From Silicimonas sp. (GTDB lineage Bacteria > Pseudomonadota > Alphaproteobacteria > Rhodobacterales > Rhodobacteraceae): a stretch of 34,111 nt of DNA. Location of the stretch: contig JAJEFO010000080.1 of NCBI GenBank assembly GCA_022820365.1, positions 1 through 34,111 of the forward strand. The letters are read 5' to 3'. A program made the position numbers and the translations under genes. The notes below the pieces were generated by a model. The model was given only the letters and a program-made list of their open reading frames with translations. It made no database searches and had not been told where the DNA came from. Shown one piece after another: positions 24,216 to 34,111 of the stretch. Numbering within the stretch: the stretch's first letter is position 1; each line of letters begins with the position of its first letter.

Positions 24216-24548
24216 TTATCCTGCCAGACCGAAAAAAAGGGCCAACAACCGATTCACGCTGACCATGGTGGTTTCGTCGATCTGACCAATCGACGGCCCG
24301 ATCCGTTCAGCCTTCACGGTCACGGGCTTGTCCAGCATGATTTGCGAGGTCACGCGCAGTCCATTGTCGGCGGACTCCTCAACTGTCAATCGGAGGAGTG
24401 GCGCGTCAACCAACGTGGATGTGACGGGAAGAATGGTCACTGAGCCTAGATCGGCAAACTGATTCGCCTGGATGATCAACGCGGGGCGCGGCTTGCCATT
24501 GTCGCCGTTCAGAGCGACTGTCACCAGTTCGCCCCGCCTCACCGCCAT
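24216..24548 (-). CDS. mazF: MazF/PemK-type endoribonuclease toxin
   Basis: A 110-residue protein with the CcdB/MazF fold: RRGELVTVALNGDNGKPRPALIIQ at the N-terminus holds the active-site GKPRPALI strand, ILPVTSTL follows, and QIMLDKPVTVKAERIG with IDETTMVSVNRLLALFFGL close the domain. MazF/PemK toxins cleave mRNA at short sequence motifs. Its ATG at 24548 is inside the 3' end of the antitoxin gene (10-base overlap), so expression is coupled. Length is normal and the active-site strand is intact. Recognition sequence unknown. Confidence 0.92.
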   Translation of the reverse strand: MAVRRGELVTVALNGDNGKPRPALIIQANQFADLGSVTILPVTSTLVDAPLLRLTVEESADNGLRVTSQIMLDKPVTVKAERIGPSIGQIDETTMVSVNRLLALFFGLAG

Positions 24549-25344: not shown

Positions 25345-26883
25345 CTATAACGCCTCGATGGCCCTGACGGCATCGTTGAGCGCCTCGCCCTCCTCGTCCA
25401 ACAGCGCGGCTTCACGAAGGCGTCTTGCACAGCTAGCTGCATCCGTGCGGTCTGCGACTCGATCCACCATGCCAAGAACTTTGTCGAATTTCGACAGTCC
25501 GCGTGCGTAGGTTTCTGAATAGCCTTTGATCAGCCGACCGCAGCAGAGGATTTCTGTGGCGAGTGCGGGATCTGCGTCGGCAAATCGGGCGGCGCGCGAC
25601 AGCCAACCGTCGAGATGCGCCTGTTCGACAGCGTGGCGTCGTGTTCTGCGGCGGTACCACTTCAGCCCGCCGAGCGCGTAGAGAAGAAGGAACGGCCCCA
25701 GTCGGTCCGAGCGTAGTCGCCTGCCCTTGGCGAACCAGCGGTCTATGCGGGCCATGGCGCGGGGACTCGCCGCGAATCGGGCTCCCATCCTGGCAGGCAG
25801 CAGCCCGACGATCTCTTCGGCCCGGGGATGCATGTATTCGGTCAAGTGCAGTATCTGTTGCGGTCCGGTTGCGATCTCGGCAGCAATTCGGCCATTGCGA
25901 GCGGCGCGGGTCTTGAGATCCGCCACGCGGATCACGTCGTCGTAAGCCATGGCGTTGGCAATGTACTTTGCTGCGACCTTGGTCAGCTCGTTGCCGCCGA
26001 GGCTGCCGGAGATGGCAAATGGTGCAAGGCGATCAAGATACTCCTCACCGTAATCCGCATCCATGAAGTCGACTACCTTGCGCAGCCCGGCAAATGCAAT
26101 CGGCCGTGCGGGCTCCGGCAGGTCAGCGGCGCGTCGCGTCAGGCTCTCCCACCTGTCGAGCAGACGCACGGGACCGGAGGCACCCGGCGAGGATGGCGGC
26201 CGCTCTGGTTCGCTGCTGGCCTGCACACCCTTGAGGCAGGCATGGAATCCGGCGTCGAAGGCGCGCAGGCTACTCTCAACTCCCCGCTTTCCGGACCGGA
26301 TGGCGTCCTCGAAGGCGCCCTTGTCGAAGGGCAGGCATCCCGAAGCAGCCAGGGCGCCGAACAGAGTGGCCGAAATCACGGATCCGCTTTCGACCGCCAG
26401 TTCCTCCATGTCGAAACAAATGAACCGGGCGGCTGCAACTTCGGCTGCGGCGCGTACTTCGGTCGCGTCGGCGGTCCCGTCACCAGGGGCACATTTTTCT
26501 GAGATTGCGAGATTCCTGTGGGACGATGCGATGAGTGTCGTTCTATCCGGGGTTACGAAACCGCGCGCGATCGCGCGCCCGGCCTCCATCAGTTCGGAGG
26601 CGATCAGGATGTCAACATCGCCAGAGGATGGCGCGAGCGCAAAGACCGGTTGTGCACTTCCGGTCCTGGCCATCTCGACATAGTAGATGGTCGCGCCTGT
26701 ACGCTGTGCCACGCCGGCGACCGAGGTTGCTTGGCATGCGTAGCCTTGCGCCCGGGCGAGAGCTTCGATCCATCTGGTCAAGACTCCGCCGCCCTGACCT
26801 CCCACCGCCATGATCGCGACCTTGATGACGCCGTCGGGGCTCGGTTTGGCCACCTCTGCCGGAATGGGCTGCTGCACTGTCAT
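25345..26883 (-). CDS. iorB: Indolepyruvate ferredoxin oxidoreductase beta subunit, long form
   Basis: A 512-residue protein. Residues about 20-210 are the gamma-type domain of 2-oxoacid:ferredoxin oxidoreductases, with VAIMAVGGQGGGVLTRWI at the start and YYVEMARTGS; this domain contacts CoA and the thiamine centre of IorA. Classical IorB proteins stop near 200 residues; here about 300 more follow, an alpha-helical Arg-rich region resembling the DUF6537 domain that accompanies proteobacterial indolepyruvate oxidoreductases. The start is the ATG at 26883, overlapping the iorA stop (ATGA); the longer open frame to 27069 is inside iorA. It is the last gene of the operon led by the fused kynureninase-like/cyclase gene. 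Confidence 0.88.
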   Translation of the reverse strand: MTVQQPIPAEVAKPSPDGVIKVAIMAVGGQGGGVLTRWIEALARAQGYACQATSVAGVAQRTGATIYYVEMARTGSAQPVFALAPSSGDVDILIASELMEAGRAIARGFVTPDRTTLIASSHRNLAISEKCAPGDGTADATEVRAAAEVAAARFICFDMEELAVESGSVISATLFGALAASGCLPFDKGAFEDAIRSGKRGVESSLRAFDAGFHACLKGVQASSEPERPPSSPGASGPVRLLDRWESLTRRAADLPEPARPIAFAGLRKVVDFMDADYGEEYLDRLAPFAISGSLGGNELTKVAAKYIANAMAYDDVIRVADLKTRAARNGRIAAEIATGPQQILHLTEYMHPRAEEIVGLLPARMGARFAASPRAMARIDRWFAKGRRLRSDRLGPFLLLYALGGLKWYRRRTRRHAVEQAHLDGWLSRAARFADADPALATEILCCGRLIKGYSETYARGLSKFDKVLGMVDRVADRTDAASCARRLREAALLDEEGEALNDAVRAIEAL

Positions 26884-29027
26884 TCCGCGCCTCCAAAGGA
26901 CAGCGACTGGCGTGCCCGGCGGCGTTGCAGCCAGCGTATGAGCCGCGCGGCGAGTCCCGCACGCCAATGTTCGAAACCGGTCGGGTTGTGCACGATGTCG
27001 GCGCGGTAGAAACTTGGACAGAGCACGGCGGCCTCGGCCACCTCGCCGCAGTTTCCGCAGCCGACGCATGTCTGGTCGATATGCGCCACCGGATCGTCGC
27101 GCAGCGGGTCGTCAAGCTTCTTGAGCGACAGCGACGGGCAGCCCGAGAGTCGGATGCAGGCGTGATCGCCCGTGCAGATGTCTTCATCGACGCCGAAACG
27201 AGGCACCACGACGCGCCTACCCGCGTTGACGGCCTCTTGCCGGAGCGGTTTCTCGCGGCGCTGGCGGTTCAACATGCATTCGGAGGAGGCGATTATGACC
27301 TTCGGGCCGTCATAGTCAGTGGTCAGCGCCTCGCGAAAGACCTCGCACATCCGAGGCACATCGTAGGTGCGGTCGATCTCGCGAACCCATTTCACGCCAA
27401 CACCCCGGACGGCGGCGCCGATCGGGTTGTTCGTGGCTCGGGTCGGGTTGCTGGCGCGGCTCGACGGCACGTCCTGTCCGCCTGTGGCTGCTGAATAGTA
27501 GTTGTCAACGATCACCGCGACGCTGTCGGCGCGGTTGAACACCATGTTGCCTATCGAGGAGGCGAGGCCGTTATGCCAGAACCCGCCATCGCCGATGATC
27601 GAGATCGCCCGCCGATCGCCGCCGGCGTCGAAGGCCGAATTCGATGCCGGGCCGAGGCCGTAGCCCATTGTCGAACCGCCGATTTCGAAGGGCGGGAGCG
27701 AAGCGAAAAGATGGCAACCGATGTCGCCGGTGATCTGGTGTTCACCAAGTTCCCGCTGGACGATCTTCAGTGCAGCGAAGATCGGGCGTTCGGGGCAGCC
27801 GGTGCAGAACCCGGGCGGGCGGACCGGGATCGTCGTCGAAAGGTCCGGGATTTTGGGCGCATCCCGGTTGGGTGCACGTACCTGGCCGGGCAGCAGGTCG
27901 GGGGCGGTTTCGCGAAGAAAGGCGGTCATGCCTTCATGCAGCACTTGGCCGGTGTATTCGCCGGCCATCGGCAGGACATCCTTGCCCATCAGTCGGGTTT
28001 GGACTCTTTCCCTGAAGAGCATGGAGCCAATGGATTGCTCAATGAACTCGGGCTGGCCTTCCTCGACGACCAGGAGCGCGTCCTTGCCGCGCGCAAAGTC
28101 CAGAACCTCGGTCTGCACCAATGGGTACGTGACATTCAGGACATGGAGCGGCACATCCGTTTTCCCGTAGAGGTCGGCAAGGCCCAACCGCTGCAGCGCC
28201 CTTATCACGCCGTTGTACATGCCGCCCTGAAGAACGATTCCGACCTTGCCCTGCTGGGGGCCGAAGCGCTCGTTCAACGCCTGTTTGGCAATGAAGGCCT
28301 CCGCAGCGGGCCAGCGGTTCTCGATCTTGTCTTGCTCGTGGGCGTAGGACATCGGCGGCAGTACCACGCGCCGGAAGTCCTTTCGTGGTTCTGCCAGCGC
28401 ATCGCGGACGGTCAGCGGCGGCGGGATGTTGTCAGCAGTTTCGAACTGGCCAGTGACATGGCAGGACCGAATCCGCACCATTAGCATCACAGGCGTGCTG
28501 GACGCCTCGGACAGCTCGAACCCCTGTTTTACCGCCCGCACGATCGAGGGCAGGTTCGGACGCGGGTCCAGGAGCCAGAACTGCGACTTCATCGCGAAGG
28601 CGTGGCTGCGCTCCTGCATGATCGAGGAACCTTCGCCGTAGTCCTCGCCGAGAACAATCAGCGCACCGCCGTTCACGCCAGAGGACGCGAGGTTCGCCAA
28701 GGCGTCTGACGCCACGTTTACCCCAACAGGGCCCTTGTAGGTCACGGCACCACGAATCGGGTAGTGGACTGAAGCTGCCAGCATCGCGGTTGCCGCGGCC
28801 TCGGAAGCATTGGCTTCGAACCGAACGCCGATCTCGGCGAGGAGATCCTGCGCGTCGGCCAGCACGTCCATCAGGTGAGAGATCGGCGCGCCCTGATAGC
28901 CGCCGACATAGCCCACGCCGGATTCCAGCAGCGCCTTCGTGATTGCCAGAATGCCTTCACCCGTGAAGGTTTCGCCGGCACCGAGGCGCAGGTGCTCGAC
29001 TTCTGCCTTGAACGAGCGCTCGGCCAT
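26880..29027 (-). CDS. iorA: Indolepyruvate ferredoxin oxidoreductase alpha subunit
   Basis: IorA decarboxylates aryl pyruvates such as indole-3-pyruvate through thiamine diphosphate; with IorB and CoA it gives the aryl-acetyl-CoA and reduced ferredoxin. The 715 residues hold a pyrimidine-type TPP domain (VGYVGGYQGAPISHL, 38-52), a middle domain, a PP-type TPP domain with GDGGFWHNG (479-487) and DNYYSAATGG (508-517), and a C-terminal ferredoxin-like part. The cysteine spacing there is unusual: C618-x5-C624-x5-C630-P, then C654xxC657xxC660, then C670-P. The ATG at 29027 lies six bases after the stop of the fused gene, with GGACTGA across the junction. Confidence 0.92.
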   Translation of the reverse strand: MAERSFKAEVEHLRLGAGETFTGEGILAITKALLESGVGYVGGYQGAPISHLMDVLADAQDLLAEIGVRFEANASEAAATAMLAASVHYPIRGAVTYKGPVGVNVASDALANLASSGVNGGALIVLGEDYGEGSSIMQERSHAFAMKSQFWLLDPRPNLPSIVRAVKQGFELSEASSTPVMLMVRIRSCHVTGQFETADNIPPPLTVRDALAEPRKDFRRVVLPPMSYAHEQDKIENRWPAAEAFIAKQALNERFGPQQGKVGIVLQGGMYNGVIRALQRLGLADLYGKTDVPLHVLNVTYPLVQTEVLDFARGKDALLVVEEGQPEFIEQSIGSMLFRERVQTRLMGKDVLPMAGEYTGQVLHEGMTAFLRETAPDLLPGQVRAPNRDAPKIPDLSTTIPVRPPGFCTGCPERPIFAALKIVQRELGEHQITGDIGCHLFASLPPFEIGGSTMGYGLGPASNSAFDAGGDRRAISIIGDGGFWHNGLASSIGNMVFNRADSVAVIVDNYYSAATGGQDVPSSRASNPTRATNNPIGAAVRGVGVKWVREIDRTYDVPRMCEVFREALTTDYDGPKVIIASSECMLNRQRREKPLRQEAVNAGRRVVVPRFGVDEDICTGDHACIRLSGCPSLSLKKLDDPLRDDPVAHIDQTCVGCGNCGEVAEAAVLCPSFYRADIVHNPTGFEHWRAGLAARLIRWLQRRRARQSLSFGGAE

Positions 29028-29033
29028 GCGACG

Positions 29034-31034
29034 TCAGTCCTGCGGCACGAGCGCCAGGGCGCGGATCGGTGACCCGGTGCCGTGCTCGATCTTCAGGGGC
29101 GCTGCCATCAGGATTGCACCCTTTGGCGGCAACTGGTCGAGATTCGCGAGCGACGCGAGACCGAAACAGTTGTCGCGATGCAGGAAGTTGTGCGCCGGAT
29201 AGGGGGGCGAGAACTTGCCCGCCATGCCGGCATCGGTGCCGATGCACTGGGCGCCCCACCCGACGATGCCCTTGGAAATCAGGTAGTCGATGCATTCCGT
29301 CGTCGGTCCGGGGCTGTGCGATCCGTCTTCATGGGGATCGGGGTCCTCGTTCAGGAAGAACTCTTCGTCATGGGATCGCTTGTCCCAGTCGGTGCGCATC
29401 ACCACCCACTCGCCCGGATTGATCTCTCCGTGCTCCGCCTCCCAAGCCTTGACGTGTTCGGCAGTGAGCAGAAAGTCGGGGTCTTCGGCGGCCTCCCTGG
29501 AGCAGTCGATCACGTTGACCGGCGCAACGAGGCGTTGGACGTCGAGCGAGTCGGTGTAGCCGTCCTCGAAGTCCTTGCCAGAAATCCAGTGATGCGGTGC
29601 GTCGAAATGTGTGCCGGAATGCTCGCCCAGCACCATCCAGTTCCAGGCGAAGAACGGCCCGTCGGCATCGTATTCGCTGATCTTGTGGATTTCGACCTTG
29701 GGCGTGTTCTTGGCGAAGTCCTTCGGCAGGCGCAGTATCGGCGTGTCGGGACCAAGGGTGGCGGTGCAGTCGACGATTCTCACTTGGCCGGACATCAGCA
29801 TCGCGCCGAGCTGGCCCAAAAGATCTGCGGGATTCATGTCGGCTCCTGTCTGCGGGCCTGTCGCGGCAAAGCGGGACTTGCGGCGGGTCAGCACCGCCTC
29901 GGCGATGTCGAAGACGGTGTCGATTGTCTCTGCCGCGGTCATGTTGCCCGGCGAAAGGCGGACAAGGGGTCCGCGGAAATCCACCGAATAGCCCTCGACC
30001 CCAAGCGCGCCGACCACGGCGGCAGCCTCGGGCTTGTTCGGAAAGCGCAGCATGACCGAGCCGCCGCGCCTGTCGGCCTCGCGCGGAGAATGCAGCGGCA
30101 GGTCGAGATCATCTGCACGCGCGATGATCCTGTCGACGAGACGTCGGTTCCAGGCAGCCGTTTCGGTGTGATCCTGGGTCGCGTGCCACTTGAGGGCGGG
30201 CAGCGAGGCGATCGCAGCCATCGAACCCGGGGTGCCACCATCGAAGCGGCGGATGTCTGGGGCGTATTCGAACTTGTCGATGTCCCAAGAAAACGGGTTG
30301 TTCTGCGAAAACCAGCCTCGACCGTCGGGCTCGAGTTCCAGTGCCAGCGACTTGTCGACGTAGAGGATGCCAGCGCCAGGTGTGCCGCACATCCATTTCA
30401 GGCTGGTCGAAACGACGAAATCAACCTTGGGGTTCATCGCGTCAAAGGGAATGAGCCCCGCGGCCTGGGTGATGTCGACTCCGATCATGGTGCCCATCTC
30501 CCGACCATGCGCGACCAACGGCGCCAGATCGGTCCGTGCCGAGGCGGTCGAGGTGACCCAGGTGAGGAGCGCCAGTCCGACATCTTGACTCCAGCGGGCA
30601 GCGAAGTCCTCCGCCTCGACCCAAGCCTTGCCTTCGCTCAGCGGCACCGTGTCGAGCGTGAAGCCCATTTTCGGCGCCAGGCCCGCCAGCAGGAAGTGAA
30701 TTGACGGAAAGCAGTCCGCGGCCACGAGCACACGCTTGCCGCGCAGCATTCCCTCGGGGAGCGAGCGCACCAGCTTGTGCATGCCATCGGTCACGCTCTC
30801 GCAGGTGGTTGCCGAGCCCTTGGGCACGTTTATGATGCGTCGCCAGTAGTCAATGAAGTCCTGCCGACGCAGCAGCACATAGCCCCATTGCTTGTCATTC
30901 GGCGCGGCCCAGACCTCGGCGAACTCGGCGGCGGCCTCGGCGAATTCCTGCTCCTTGCCCGGGTACATGCCAATCGAGTGGTACAGATAATACCCGGCGT
31001 GCTTGGTGTTTGTGAGCATGTTGCGGATCCGCAT
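29034..31034 (-). CDS. Fused kynureninase-like PLP enzyme and KynB/isatin-hydrolase-type cyclase
   Basis: A single 666-residue frame with two enzymes. Residues about 10-390 are an aminotransferase class V fold of kynureninase type: D187 in GVDITQAAG should bind the pyridine nitrogen, K213 in STSLKWMCGTPGAG should carry the PLP, and GRGWFSQNNPF with RRFDGGTPG are kynureninase-like blocks. Residues about 415-666 are a cyclase-family metal hydrolase with HSGTHFDAPHHW (H472, H476, D478) and IGTDAG near the end, as in formamidase KynB and isatin hydrolase. An internal ATG (29837, Met400) preceded by AGGAG sits between the domains. The start is the ATG at 31034 or 31019; neither has a strong ribosome binding site. 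It begins an operon with iorA and iorB. Substrate is inferred to be a tryptophan- or indole-derived compound; activity is not proven. Confidence 0.88.
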   Translation of the reverse strand: MRIRNMLTNTKHAGYYLYHSIGMYPGKEQEFAEAAAEFAEVWAAPNDKQWGYVLLRRQDFIDYWRRIINVPKGSATTCESVTDGMHKLVRSLPEGMLRGKRVLVAADCFPSIHFLLAGLAPKMGFTLDTVPLSEGKAWVEAEDFAARWSQDVGLALLTWVTSTASARTDLAPLVAHGREMGTMIGVDITQAAGLIPFDAMNPKVDFVVSTSLKWMCGTPGAGILYVDKSLALELEPDGRGWFSQNNPFSWDIDKFEYAPDIRRFDGGTPGSMAAIASLPALKWHATQDHTETAAWNRRLVDRIIARADDLDLPLHSPREADRRGGSVMLRFPNKPEAAAVVGALGVEGYSVDFRGPLVRLSPGNMTAAETIDTVFDIAEAVLTRRKSRFAATGPQTGADMNPADLLGQLGAMLMSGQVRIVDCTATLGPDTPILRLPKDFAKNTPKVEIHKISEYDADGPFFAWNWMVLGEHSGTHFDAPHHWISGKDFEDGYTDSLDVQRLVAPVNVIDCSREAAEDPDFLLTAEHVKAWEAEHGEINPGEWVVMRTDWDKRSHDEEFFLNEDPDPHEDGSHSPGPTTECIDYLISKGIVGWGAQCIGTDAGMAGKFSPPYPAHNFLHRDNCFGLASLANLDQLPPKGAILMAAPLKIEHGTGSPIRALALVPQD
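29835..29847 (-). promoter_or_regulatory. Internal ribosome binding site and start codon at the fusion junction
   Basis: On the minus strand AGGAG (29843-29847) is followed after five bases by ATG (29835-29837), which is Met400 of the long frame. Translation from it would give MNPADLLGQL and the complete cyclase domain (267 residues). This is a better ribosome binding site than that of the full-length gene. Confidence 0.6.
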
Positions 31035-31330: not shown

Positions 31331-31975
31331 ATGGCCTTTGACGTGGAGGCGTGCCGTCGCGAGTTCTGGCGTCTTGACCGAAGTAGCGGTGCCTGGCGGA
31401 CCGACCGTGCTCCGACACGCGAAGACATCCATGCGCGCTGGCACTGGCAGATGGAAAGGACGGTTCCTGATCCCGAAGCGTCGGACATTGGACGCCACAG
31501 CTCGTTGATGAGCGGCAAGGGGAGATGCGTTCCCCGGGATGACGTGAACCCGCTGCAGAAGCGTTTCCGGTACTCGCCGATGCCTCTCGCCTGGTTCGAG
31601 AACGGTCCTGCGAGACATGTGTTCAGGAAGCCGGATCCGGACCACCGCCTGCTGTCATCGCTTTCCGGCAAGCATCTTGCCGGTTACACGGGCCGTCCAT
31701 CGGGGGCGGAACTGTTCCGCTGGCTGACCGAAGGGACGAGAACTAGCGACGAACGGGACTGGCTTGCCGAACTGCTGCAGGACATCCGTGAAGATGACTA
31801 CCCGCAACTGCGACGCCGGGATGCACTCAGCGTCTGGCACGTCGCCCGCGCGGTCTTGGAGAGCGATGTGCGCCGCGGAGCATTGTCCTGGTGGCTGAAT
31901 CAGTTTGCAGAGAAGCCGGAAGGCTGGAAGGGCAGGGTCCCGGGCGGCGAGTCGCCGGCACGAGCTGCCGCGTGA
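31331..31975 (+). CDS. Unrecognised protein coupled to an AbiEii-like nucleotidyltransferase
   Basis: A 214-residue protein that I do not recognise. The start is the ATG at 31331 (MAFDVEACRREFWRLDR) with AGGAG eight bases upstream; the frame is open to 31259 without a start signal. It is rich in Trp (11) and Arg, has no signal peptide, membrane segment or cysteine motif, and looks mostly alpha-helical in its second half (WLAELLQDIREDDYPQLRRRDALSVWHVARAVL, in part). Its stop overlaps the GTG of the downstream nucleotidyltransferase gene (GTGA), a coupling typical of paired toxin-antitoxin genes. An antitoxin role for it is inference from position; it does not resemble AbiEi with its winged-helix start. 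Confidence 0.7.
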   Translation: MAFDVEACRREFWRLDRSSGAWRTDRAPTREDIHARWHWQMERTVPDPEASDIGRHSSLMSGKGRCVPRDDVNPLQKRFRYSPMPLAWFENGPARHVFRKPDPDHRLLSSLSGKHLAGYTGRPSGAELFRWLTEGTRTSDERDWLAELLQDIREDDYPQLRRRDALSVWHVARAVLESDVRRGALSWWLNQFAEKPEGWKGRVPGGESPARAAA

Positions 31976-32706
31976 GCGAATTCGAGATACTACCCCCGGC
32001 GGACGCGATTCTCAGGCAGATCGCGCCCGCGTTGCTCCAGGTTCTGGATCCCGGCGACATCCTGATCGGCGACGGGACCGCGCTGACCGCGAGATGGCAG
32101 CACCGCCAGAGCACAGACTTCGACCTGACGGTTGCAGCGACCGCCATTGGTCGAGAGGGTGGCCGGATTCTGGCGCTGTTGACATCGGTTTCCGTCTCGA
32201 ACATCCGGCATGGCCGCGGCTGGCTGAACGGCATGTGCGCCGACGGAGAGTTCAGCATGTCAACCACCACGCCTCTCCTGCCCGCATCGACAGAGCTGGC
32301 GGATCGCGAGACCTGCTTCGGGCTTGGTCTCGAACCTGCAGCGGAAATCCTGGCCCGCAAGCTGAAGCTCCGGTTGTATGGCAACGGTGAATTCGTCTCT
32401 CGAGACTTCTACGACATTTGCACCGCCAGCGAACGGGACCGCGACGAGCTTGAACTGGCGCTTTCGGTCCTGAGTGTCGAGATGCGGGCCGAAATCGCCC
32501 GCGAAATTGCCAGCTTGGGACCGCAGGCCGCGCGGCTCGGGCGCCCGCTGACCGGAGTCCACAGACCGTCATGGTTGGGCAATCTAGGTGAACGGGCGGC
32601 GGAGTTGATCGTGTCGCCGCATCCAGTCCCCGGGCATCGTCGAGACGTCCGCTCCATGCCGGGTGACGACGGCCGAAGGAAGCCAGATACCGAAGAGCCC
32701 AGCTAG
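31972..32706 (+). CDS. Nucleotidyl transferase, AbiEii/AbiGii toxin-like
   Basis: A 244-residue nucleotidyltransferase-fold protein. GDGTALTARWQHRQSTDFDLTV-like residues 33-54 hold the GxGT and DxD (D49, D51) signature of the DNA-polymerase-beta superfamily as seen in AbiEii. The later block EILARKLKLRLYG...SRDFYDI (K130, K132, R144, D145, D148) is also conserved in that family. AbiEii toxins of type IV toxin-antitoxin and abortive infection systems modify tRNA ends. The GTG at 31972 is chosen because it overlaps the stop of the upstream gene by four bases (GTGA); an in-frame ATG at 31891 would overlap it by 85. Residues 195-244 are a charged, probably disordered tail. Confidence 0.72.
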   Translation: MSEFEILPPADAILRQIAPALLQVLDPGDILIGDGTALTARWQHRQSTDFDLTVAATAIGREGGRILALLTSVSVSNIRHGRGWLNGMCADGEFSMSTTTPLLPASTELADRETCFGLGLEPAAEILARKLKLRLYGNGEFVSRDFYDICTASERDRDELELALSVLSVEMRAEIAREIASLGPQAARLGRPLTGVHRPSWLGNLGERAAELIVSPHPVPGHRRDVRSMPGDDGRRKPDTEEPS

Positions 32707-33010: not shown

Positions 33011-34111
33011 ATGGGAGGCGATCTGGAAAACGGCGCAAGTTCGAGCAGCATGACGGAGGTCCCCAGAGTCACGGTTCGGCCCGCCTATTTCGTCTCGACG
33101 ATCATCAAGGGTGGCTGGCAGCTTGCCGGCGACCATGGCGCGGTGAATGCGGATCAGGCGATTGCCGACATGGTCCGATTTGTCGATGCCGGCGTCACCA
33201 CCTTCGATTGCGCCGACATCTATGCCGGCGTCGAGGAAAAGATCGGCCGGTTTCGCGCCGAACTCATCCGATCCCGCGGGCGGGTTGCGCTGGACAACGT
33301 CAAGATCCACACGAAATACGTGCCTGATCGGGACAGCCTGGCAAGGCTCACGTTCGATGATGTCGAAGCGGGGATAGACCGCTCGCTGCTTCGGTTGGGG
33401 CTGGATCGGCTGGATCTGGTGCAATTCCATTGGTGGGACTATGCCGTGCCGGGTCATGTCGAAGCGATGGGGCACCTCAGCGCCCTGCGCGACAAGGGCA
33501 AGATCGACCTGATCGGAGTGACCAACTTCGACGCCGAGCATCTGACGGAGTTGTGCGACACGACTGACATCGCGTCGGCCCAAGTGCAGTATTCATTGCT
33601 CGACCGCCGCGCCTCGGGAAACTTCGCCGCGCTCGCAAGAAACAGAAGGGTCAGCATTTTCGCCTACGGCGTTCTCGCTGGCGGGTTCCTGAACGATGCT
33701 TGGCTCGGCAGGCCCGATCCCGGATTCGACTTTGAGAACCGCAGCTTGGTCAAGTACCGCCTGATCATCGAGGAGTTCGGCGGCTGGGCGCTGTTTCAAG
33801 ATCTGCTGGCGTCGCTGCGCACGGTGGCCGACCGACATGGTTCAGACATCTCCGCCATCGCGCTCCGCGCCACGCTGGACAGCCCCGATGTCGCAGCGAC
33901 AATCGTTGGTGCGCGCTATGCCGACCGATTGCCTCAGACTCTCCACGCCTTCAAAGTCGAATTGACGGACCGGGATCGTAGCGAGATCGAGGCGGTCCGA
34001 GATCGGTCGACCGGTCCGCAGGGTGCGGTCTACGGGCTGGAGCGTGACGTTACGGGGCGACACGGGCTGATCATGAAATACAATCTCAACAAGGGTGACA
34101 ATCGGTTGGCC
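33011..34111 (+). CDS. Aldo/keto reductase, 3' end beyond the window
   Basis: A (beta/alpha)8 NAD(P)H-dependent oxidoreductase of the aldo/keto reductase superfamily, open to the last base (367 residues visible). The catalytic tetrad is present: D66 and Y71 in FDCADIYAG, K102 in IHTKYVP and H140 in LVQFHWW. GVTNFDAEHL, QVQYSLLDRR and the IVGARYADRL nucleotide-binding block near the C-terminus are typical. Candidate starts are the ATG at 33011 and at 33050 (Met14), with GAAGGAAAG about 15 bases before the first; an ATG at 32867 is also in frame. The fold is near complete, so only a short tail is missing. Substrate unknown; it may form a separate unit from the AbiEii-like pair. Confidence 0.92.
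   Translation, partial: MGGDLENGASSSSMTEVPRVTVRPAYFVSTIIKGGWQLAGDHGAVNADQAIADMVRFVDAGVTTFDCADIYAGVEEKIGRFRAELIRSRGRVALDNVKIHTKYVPDRDSLARLTFDDVEAGIDRSLLRLGLDRLDLVQFHWWDYAVPGHVEAMGHLSALRDKGKIDLIGVTNFDAEHLTELCDTTDIASAQVQYSLLDRRASGNFAALARNRRVSIFAYGVLAGGFLNDAWLGRPDPGFDFENRSLVKYRLIIEEFGGWALFQDLLASLRTVADRHGSDISAIALRATLDSPDVAATIVGARYADRLPQTLHAFKVELTDRDRSEIEAVRDRSTGPQGAVYGLERDVTGRHGLIMKYNLNKGDNRLA

Follow-up and report, generated by a model that had tools for sequence, protein, structure and literature searches.

A kynureninase-like lyase fused to an isatin hydrolase and encoded with an IorAB pair in Silicimonas sp.: a candidate module for the later steps of aryl amino-acid catabolism

The window analysed here is a whole contig of 34,111 nucleotides (JAJEFO010000080.1; G000:C62) of Silicimonas sp., from a source genome (G000) of 4.7 Mb that is 98 % complete. 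Three genes lie head to tail on its minus strand: a gene in which a kynureninase-like, pyridoxal 5'-phosphate (PLP)-dependent lyase is fused to an isatin hydrolase, followed after a gap of 6 nt by iorA, which in turn overlaps iorB by 4 nt:

29034-31034 (likely start 31019), minus strand: fusion gene, kynureninase-like PLP lyase plus isatin hydrolase, open reading frame (ORF) of 666 aa, with the Pfam domains Aminotran_5, KYNU_C and Cyclase and PDB matches
26880..29027, minus strand: IorA/IadA-type alpha subunit, 715 aa, with a TPP_enzyme_C domain and C-terminal cysteine motifs in the translation
25345..26883, minus strand: IorB/IadB-type beta subunit, 512 aa from the ATG at 26883, with POR and DUF6537 domains

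The three-gene operon is genuine, and its spacing and common direction are as given in a preliminary description of this DNA. The fusion starts in relatives at the equivalent of Met6, which corresponds to position 31019 in the window, and within the 666-aa ORF the PLP half extends approximately over residues 6-390 and the isatin-hydrolase half over residues 404-665. The listed ORF of iorB (25345-27069; 574 aa) over-extends, with the ATG at 26883, preceded by GGAGG, giving the protein of 512 aa. Terminator-like sites were absent from both gene junctions, with four across the region against a shuffled mean of 4.4, and promoter-like patterns exceeded chance (4 against 0.7 expected in the region). 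Patterns of the latter type occur on the operon strand inside the fusion (30136) and iorA (27319), and further internal starts are thus possible.

Residues 404-665 of the fusion match isatin hydrolase B of Labrenzia aggregata (PDB 4j0n) with 481 bits (E 4e-143; residues 5-262 of 263 covered), followed by the other solved isatin hydrolases 5nna, 5nnb and 5nmp, while the kynurenine formamidase (arylformamidase) model TIGR03035 yields 26.3 bits, below its cut-off of 223.05. The conserved stretches in this half include HSGTHFDAPHHW, AWNW and GLAS, the last at positions 625-628 of the window protein, and the Mn-site residues H472, H476 and D478, together with the nearby H482, are invariant across 30 fusions. 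Metal ligands and a GLAS/GLQC motif are described for isatin hydrolase in the available text of PMC6117287. The fused hydrolase half is strongly predicted to open isatin to isatinate. It differs from the solved isatin hydrolase B in its context, in that 4j0n is a lone domain, whereas the half encoded in the window is fused to a PLP lyase and shares an operon with IorAB.

The PLP half belongs to the same fold family as kynureninase, and matches the kynureninase 1qz9 in the PDB with 53-54 bits over residues 65-375, but at 42.5 bits it falls far under the cut-off of the kynureninase model TIGR01814 (246.4). Kynureninases rely on a PLP-binding Lys, an Asp contacting the PLP ring, a substrate-binding Arg and a catalytic Tyr and His. 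An alignment of 49 fused sequences (window included), 28 unfused sequences (a few being fusions cut by contig ends) and nine canonical kynureninases places Lys213, Asp187 and Arg359 of the window protein with the PLP Lys, the PLP-ring Asp and the C-terminal Arg, respectively. The Tyr preceding the PLP Lys is replaced by Leu, and Gln stands in place of the DLxH His, in 76 of the 77 kynureninase-like (KynU-like) rows, the remaining row having a gap, whereas the local canonical kynureninases retain both residues in 9/9 rows. Three Burkholderiales copies of the PLP gene show the same Leu/Gln replacement. A tree of 77 KynU-like and nine canonical tips, built after removal of truncated rows, shows a long branch between the two groups, although the label of the KynU-like node after re-rooting is only 0.24. 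The fused genes form one clade in this tree with five unfused members nested in it, the exception being L024, a long ORF that may be a gene-call artefact. Among 20 carrier genomes, picked for a fused or separate PLP gene, 17 also encode a kynureninase over the cut-off; tryptophan 2,3-dioxygenase (TDO) exceeds its cut-off in 12 and is matched at 1e-10 in 19, the match in G303 being solely a divergent TDO-like gene. Neither a kynureninase nor a TDO match was found in the Silicimonas genome at the thresholds used. On the basis of the sub-cut-off score, the lost Tyr and His, and the co-existence of a true kynureninase in carriers, the PLP half is predicted to be an enzyme distinct from kynureninase, in agreement with the earlier view that this is not an ordinary kynurenine route. 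The predicted structure of the fusion has a mean pLDDT of 60.6, which is too low for fold comparison.

The IorA and IorB proteins share the thiamine pyrophosphate (TPP) and POR domain architecture of indolepyruvate ferredoxin oxidoreductase, but both fall below the cut-offs of its models, with 288 bits against 650.9 for the alpha subunit (TIGR03336) and 50.7 bits against 205.8 for the beta subunit (TIGR03334). The beta subunit, which carries DUF6537, instead exceeds the cut-off of NF006179, the indolepyruvate oxidoreductase beta family (635.9 bits; cut-off 348). Since the alpha subunit fails the TIGR03336 cut-off and IorA tracks isatin hydrolase across genomes, as set out below, the pair is probably not an indolepyruvate enzyme, and the indolepyruvate oxidoreductase named in the preliminary description gives way to an enzyme that probably acts on another substrate.

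Among 390 genomes of the order, 56 contain a match at E 1e-30 or better and seven contain the fusion, while many of the other matching genomes have a separate gene for each half, frequently within a single cluster. Co-occurrence was assessed in 383 genomes, the fused ones being excluded, using Fisher tests uncorrected for shared descent. The B-type isatin hydrolases were those sharing 60 % identity or more with the fused domain. Scoring was limited to three candidates per genome in one search and two in the other, so that some copies may have been missed. A separate PLP gene is accompanied by a B-type isatin hydrolase in 21/24 unfused genomes (p 1e-23) and by IorA in 21/24 (p 4e-17), and the B-type isatin hydrolase is accompanied by IorA in 32/32 (p 2e-32), with IorA present in 54/383 genomes overall. 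Six of the seven fused genomes encode IorA somewhere in the genome and five encode a separate additional isatin hydrolase.

The genome_contigs search found 480 stretches encoding a relative, the best 80 of which were kept, resulting in 76 loci in which genes were called with a codon-usage caller. Both halves lie on one strand in 55/76 of these fetched relatives (56/77 with the window). Downstream sequence reaches 1.5 kb or more in 52 fused loci, window included, and a same-strand IorA follows within 1.5 kb of the fusion in ten of these, an arrangement that exceeds chance. The adjacency of fusion and IorAB is consequently not confined to the window, as it recurs in 9 of 51 other loci. These ten loci stem mostly from near relatives, with L075 being more distant, as is L104, which repeats the arrangement with a fusion truncated at the contig end and stands outside the 10/52; the three-gene adjacency is mostly the feature of one clade. 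The fused carriers are mostly Rhodobacteraceae or alphaproteobacteria, with one Granulosicoccaceae metagenome-assembled genome (MAG), and the closest are Silicimonas and Boseongicola MAGs (94-97 % identity). Cultured bacteria with the fusion include Aestuariivita boseongensis, Planktotalea and Tabrizicola. In plasmid records of Rhodobacterales and Burkholderiales the proteins are annotated merely as 'aminotransferase class V-fold PLP-dependent enzyme' and 'cyclase family protein', and the reading proposed below would provide this generically annotated family with a concrete candidate function.

The typical unfused cluster comprises an isatin hydrolase, two CrtO-like flavoproteins, MarR, IorA, IorB and a peptide-type ABC transporter, with the PLP gene at a distance. 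In four Rhodobacter MAG records (L114, L115, L117 and L120; L117 is apparently the same contig as L038) this cluster adjoins a gene for a PRK08255-family salicylyl-coenzyme A (CoA) 5-hydroxylase, and further neighbours encode benzoate-CoA-ligase-like, acyl-CoA-dehydrogenase-like, enoyl-CoA-hydratase, 3-hydroxyacyl-CoA-dehydrogenase-like and thiolase proteins; these family assignments come from scans of L038 and L114 alone, and several have scores under the respective cut-offs. The PRK08255 model (NF006101) covers 2-aminobenzoyl-CoA monooxygenases; its cut-off is exceeded in 16/20 carrier genomes and in 9/15 of a second genome set. The earlier remark that an anthranilate-degrading enzyme is missing is true within the window, while in some relatives the module lies near a PRK08255-family gene. 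Thioesterases also occur beside the module, with a 4HBT thioesterase gene situated between the fusion and IorA in L075. A 20-kb stretch of a Caballeronia plasmid encodes the PLP gene, a LIV-type transporter, IorA, IorB, a thioesterase (after IorB), a PRK08255-family protein, a cupin, MarR and a cyclase; identities to the window counterparts are 45-62 % for its PLP gene, cyclase, IorA and IorB, with IorA at 62 %. On two Paraburkholderia plasmids the PLP gene is flanked by M20 peptidase, MFS transporter and cupin genes, homologous to those around the fusions in L033, L036 and L037. Genes for a P450 (TxtE/SolI-like), a glutamine-synthetase-like protein, a ferredoxin and an inositol-phosphatase-like protein lie immediately upstream of the fusion in L032, L034 and L035, and the pair of a P450 like that of L032 and a glutamine-synthetase-like protein occurs in 8/56 fusion loci, compared to 1/56 for a Rieske oxygenase. 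The transporters near fusions are likewise variable and include LIV-type, polar amino-acid, TRAP and peptide-type systems. A nitroanthranilate-type (NaaA/NaaB) reading of the M20 and bicupin neighbours was dropped, as the M20 proteins match dipeptidases and desuccinylases and the cupin matches a PDB entry named only 'Hypothetical protein'.

With moderate confidence, the operon may be regarded as encoding the later steps in the catabolism of an aryl amino acid via isatin. The route would begin with oxygenation by an enzyme encoded outside the window, or with import of an oxidised amino acid. The PLP half would then split the C-beta/C-gamma bond of an amino acid in which an oxidised indole ring carries the alanine side chain, the most likely substrate being 3-hydroxy-2-oxindolyl-alanine (dioxindolylalanine, an oxidised tryptophan), which would yield isatin and alanine by a retro-aldol reaction. 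Kynureninases are capable of retro-aldol chemistry on gamma-hydroxy substrates. The fused hydrolase half would convert the isatin to isatinate (2-aminophenylglyoxylate), and on account of the fusion this reactive intermediate could pass directly between the two halves. IorAB, using TPP, CoA and an Fe-S acceptor, would carry out the oxidative decarboxylation of isatinate to anthraniloyl-CoA, and IorA is proposed as an isatinate oxidoreductase subunit; in some relatives a thioesterase or a PRK08255-type monooxygenase may act on the product. The first is the least supported of these steps, and draws on the logic of the fusion, the changed active-site residues and the neighbouring genes for TDO-like, P450 and Rieske proteins, while the IorAB step is suggested by co-occurrence and by the PRK08255 and thioesterase neighbours. 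An aryl substrate, ring opening by the hydrolase, side-chain cleavage by the PLP domain and acyl-CoA formation by IorAB had all been anticipated in the preliminary description and are retained in the best-fitting reading, with the order changed to PLP cleavage, ring opening and IorAB. The fuller version, in which a MarE-like, P450 or other oxygenase forms dioxindolylalanine from (oxidised) tryptophan, a new PLP lyase subfamily with a kynureninase fold releases isatin and alanine, and the fused hydrolase and IorAB carry an undescribed route on to anthraniloyl-CoA, is put forward more tentatively, as a plausible candidate. If true, carriers would use oxidised tryptophan without kynurenine, and a further aerobic branch would exist beside the kynurenine and the indole/indolepyruvate routes. 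Among the matches listed in a search of open-licence literature (titles and starts of abstracts), none described a route via dioxindolylalanine, a kynureninase-type enzyme and isatin; in the same literature nothing was found that joined three or more of isatin hydrolase, kynureninase, indole-3-acetic acid, anthraniloyl-CoA and iadB, and for oxindolylalanine catabolism in bacteria the only match concerned the rabbit gut metabolome.

A link to tryptophan is suggested by G303, where approximately 25 kb encode an aldo/keto reductase, the PLP gene, a TDO-superfamily protein, a peptide transporter, an M20 dipeptidase-like protein, IorB, IorA, MarR and isatin hydrolase, with a PRK08255-family gene 5 kb past the latter. 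Full-length orthologues of the 248-aa TDO-like protein occur in 2/390 genomes, G303 and G205, which represent two genera (84 % identical), the gene being directly beside the PLP gene in G303 and 2.3 kb away, with two genes between, in G205. Both copies carry the loop SLKGR, compared to GTGGT in nine canonical local TDOs. MarE, a TDO-superfamily enzyme that forms a 2-oxindole from a tryptophan derivative, has SLGGR at this loop and human TDO has GTGGS, according to the available text of PMC11904535. The G303 and G205 proteins thus resemble MarE in the loop, but overall they are more similar to ordinary TDO, and the Silicimonas genome has no such match. Two further divergent TDO-superfamily proteins, which keep the GTGGT loop, are encoded in genome G124 (L136:2462-3247 and L142:523-1341), the L136 gene being one gene away from one of the two kynureninase genes of that genome.

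The operon could alternatively be the ordinary kynurenine pathway, with formamidase and kynureninase halves converting formylkynurenine to anthranilate and IorAB as an unrelated passenger. Both halves do fall within the broad families concerned, and no other kynureninase or TDO match was found in the Silicimonas genome at the thresholds used. The scores nevertheless argue for another function (kynureninase 42.5 vs 246.4 bits; arylformamidase 26.3 vs 223 bits; isatin hydrolase 481 bits), as do the loss of the Tyr/His signature in 76/77 rows, with one gap, the kynureninase over cut-off held by 17/20 carriers, and the tracking of B-type isatin hydrolase by IorA. The kynurenine pathway is accordingly considered very improbable, and as a main reading it was rejected on the score, the signature residues and the co-existing true kynureninase. 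An aryl amino acid that is not derived from tryptophan, with some other ortho-amino or ring-modified aryl substrate degraded via isatin-like and arylglyoxylate intermediates, is unlikely, although it would suit the wide variation of the transporters near fusions and of the partner genes (P450 with glutamine-synthetase-like, bicupin with M20, aldo/keto reductase with RidA). The close isatin-hydrolase match and the TDO-superfamily neighbour in two genomes speak for tryptophan instead.

A variant of the iad auxin pathway, in which isatin arises from indole-3-acetate or a conjugate, the isatin hydrolase corresponds to IadI and IorAB to IadAB, and the PLP half catalyses a side reaction or uses an amino-acid conjugate as its substrate, appears rather improbable. 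In the iad loci of Variovorax and Bradyrhizobium, IadA and IadB are IorA/IorB homologues, and isatin and isatinic acid have been detected (PMC9613470 and PMC12633357, as far as their available texts go). IadI carries the annotation kynurenine formamidase there and catalyses a late step, downstream of C8H7NO2 (PMC12633357, available text); this is the formula of dioxindole, not of isatin, and the substrate of IadI may therefore not be isatin itself. M20 amidohydrolase neighbours in some contexts would also fit this variant. The window resembles the iad loci in pairing IorA/IorB homologues with a kynurenine-formamidase/isatin-hydrolase-type gene, a likeness drawn from descriptions and not from Iad sequences. 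The side chain, however, would be handled by a PLP enzyme in the window, whereas in the iad pathway the side chain of indole-3-acetate is removed by CoA ligase, thiolase and dehydrogenase, in the description given by PMC12633357. Of the genes surrounding the operon that were read in the window, in L053 and on contig C120, none encodes a Rieske monooxygenase (IadCDE), CoA ligase (IadF) or thiolase (IadG), no genome-wide search having been made for them, while the PLP gene accompanies isatin hydrolase in 21/24 unfused genomes. The target of the kynureninase-type PLP fold is an amino-acid side chain, which is a further point against this variant. Because the iad loci already pair IorA/IorB homologues with an isatin/isatinic-acid route in the available text of PMC9613470, the IorAB and isatin half of the proposed route would not be new in kind, and the new metabolic system envisaged in the preliminary description has to be narrowed to that extent. 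For Variovorax, the steps from C8H7NO3 to anthranilate are listed without an assigned enzyme in the part of PMC12633357 available. As C8H7NO3 is the formula of isatinate, a role of IorAB as isatinate oxidoreductase would fill this gap before anthranilate; for the IorAB pair by which iad loci are marked, the formation of anthraniloyl-CoA from isatinate is a role that can be tested and would, if true, supply the missing function of iad-type IorAB.

Several observations weigh against the proposed route from oxidised tryptophan via isatin to anthraniloyl-CoA. The adjacent IorAB pair is lacking in 42/52 fusions with enough downstream sequence, and G338 has the fusion and no IorA match in the genome. 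In G116, G205 and G353 the PLP gene occurs but both the B-type isatin hydrolase and IorA are missing; G205 belongs to the pair of genomes that encode the TDO-like protein. Similarly, the 31-kb stretches read around the PLP genes of Paraburkholderia, for which the gene table is incomplete, show no annotated isatin hydrolase or IorAB. PRK08255 exceeds its cut-off in only 5/10 other genomes with the fusion-IorAB arrangement and gave no match in the Silicimonas genome in either genome-set search, and its substrate here is one that we infer, since the model is named salicylyl-CoA 5-hydroxylase. The TDO-like protein scores higher with ordinary TDO (93.6 bits) than with MarE (51 bits), which makes its MarE-like loop a pointer and not proof, and the Silicimonas genome has neither a TDO nor a TDO-like match, other oxygenases not having been searched for there. 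Furthermore, anthranilate in Variovorax arises from the iadC-K2 region in the available text of PMC12633357, where iadA and iadB are not mentioned.

Three further genes lie near the operon in the window:

33011..34111 (ORF listed from 32810), plus strand: divergent aldo/keto reductase gene (Aldo_ket_red), cut by the contig end
31891-32706, plus strand: AbiEii-like nucleotidyltransferase gene (family match), which together with a short upstream ORF spans 31544-32706
24216-24548, minus strand: MazF/PemK-like gene (family match), downstream of iorB

The aldo/keto reductase of the window is 83 % identical over 367 aa to the copy in L053, which is the first gene of an intact divergent operon that also encodes a LIV-type ABC transporter, RidA and an aldo/keto reductase-RidA fusion. 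The remainder of this operon in the Silicimonas genome is found on contig C120 (LIV-type ABC transporter, RidA, a 144-aa START-like protein and the aldo/keto reductase-RidA fusion), whose right end (L180) and the right end of the window overlap exactly over 141 nt. A CrtO-like flavoprotein, with 26 % identity to the CrtO-like flavoprotein of clusters elsewhere, is encoded approximately 2 kb beyond the divergent operon on C120. The AbiEii-like gene and the short ORF lie between the fusion and the divergent aldo/keto reductase, genes that are only ~140 bp apart in L053, and for this reason the pair looks like a toxin-antitoxin-type insertion into a shared fusion/aldo/keto reductase promoter region. 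Downstream of iorB in L053 (16489-16815), a protein of the same cluster as the MazF/PemK-like protein, and similar to it in size, is encoded.

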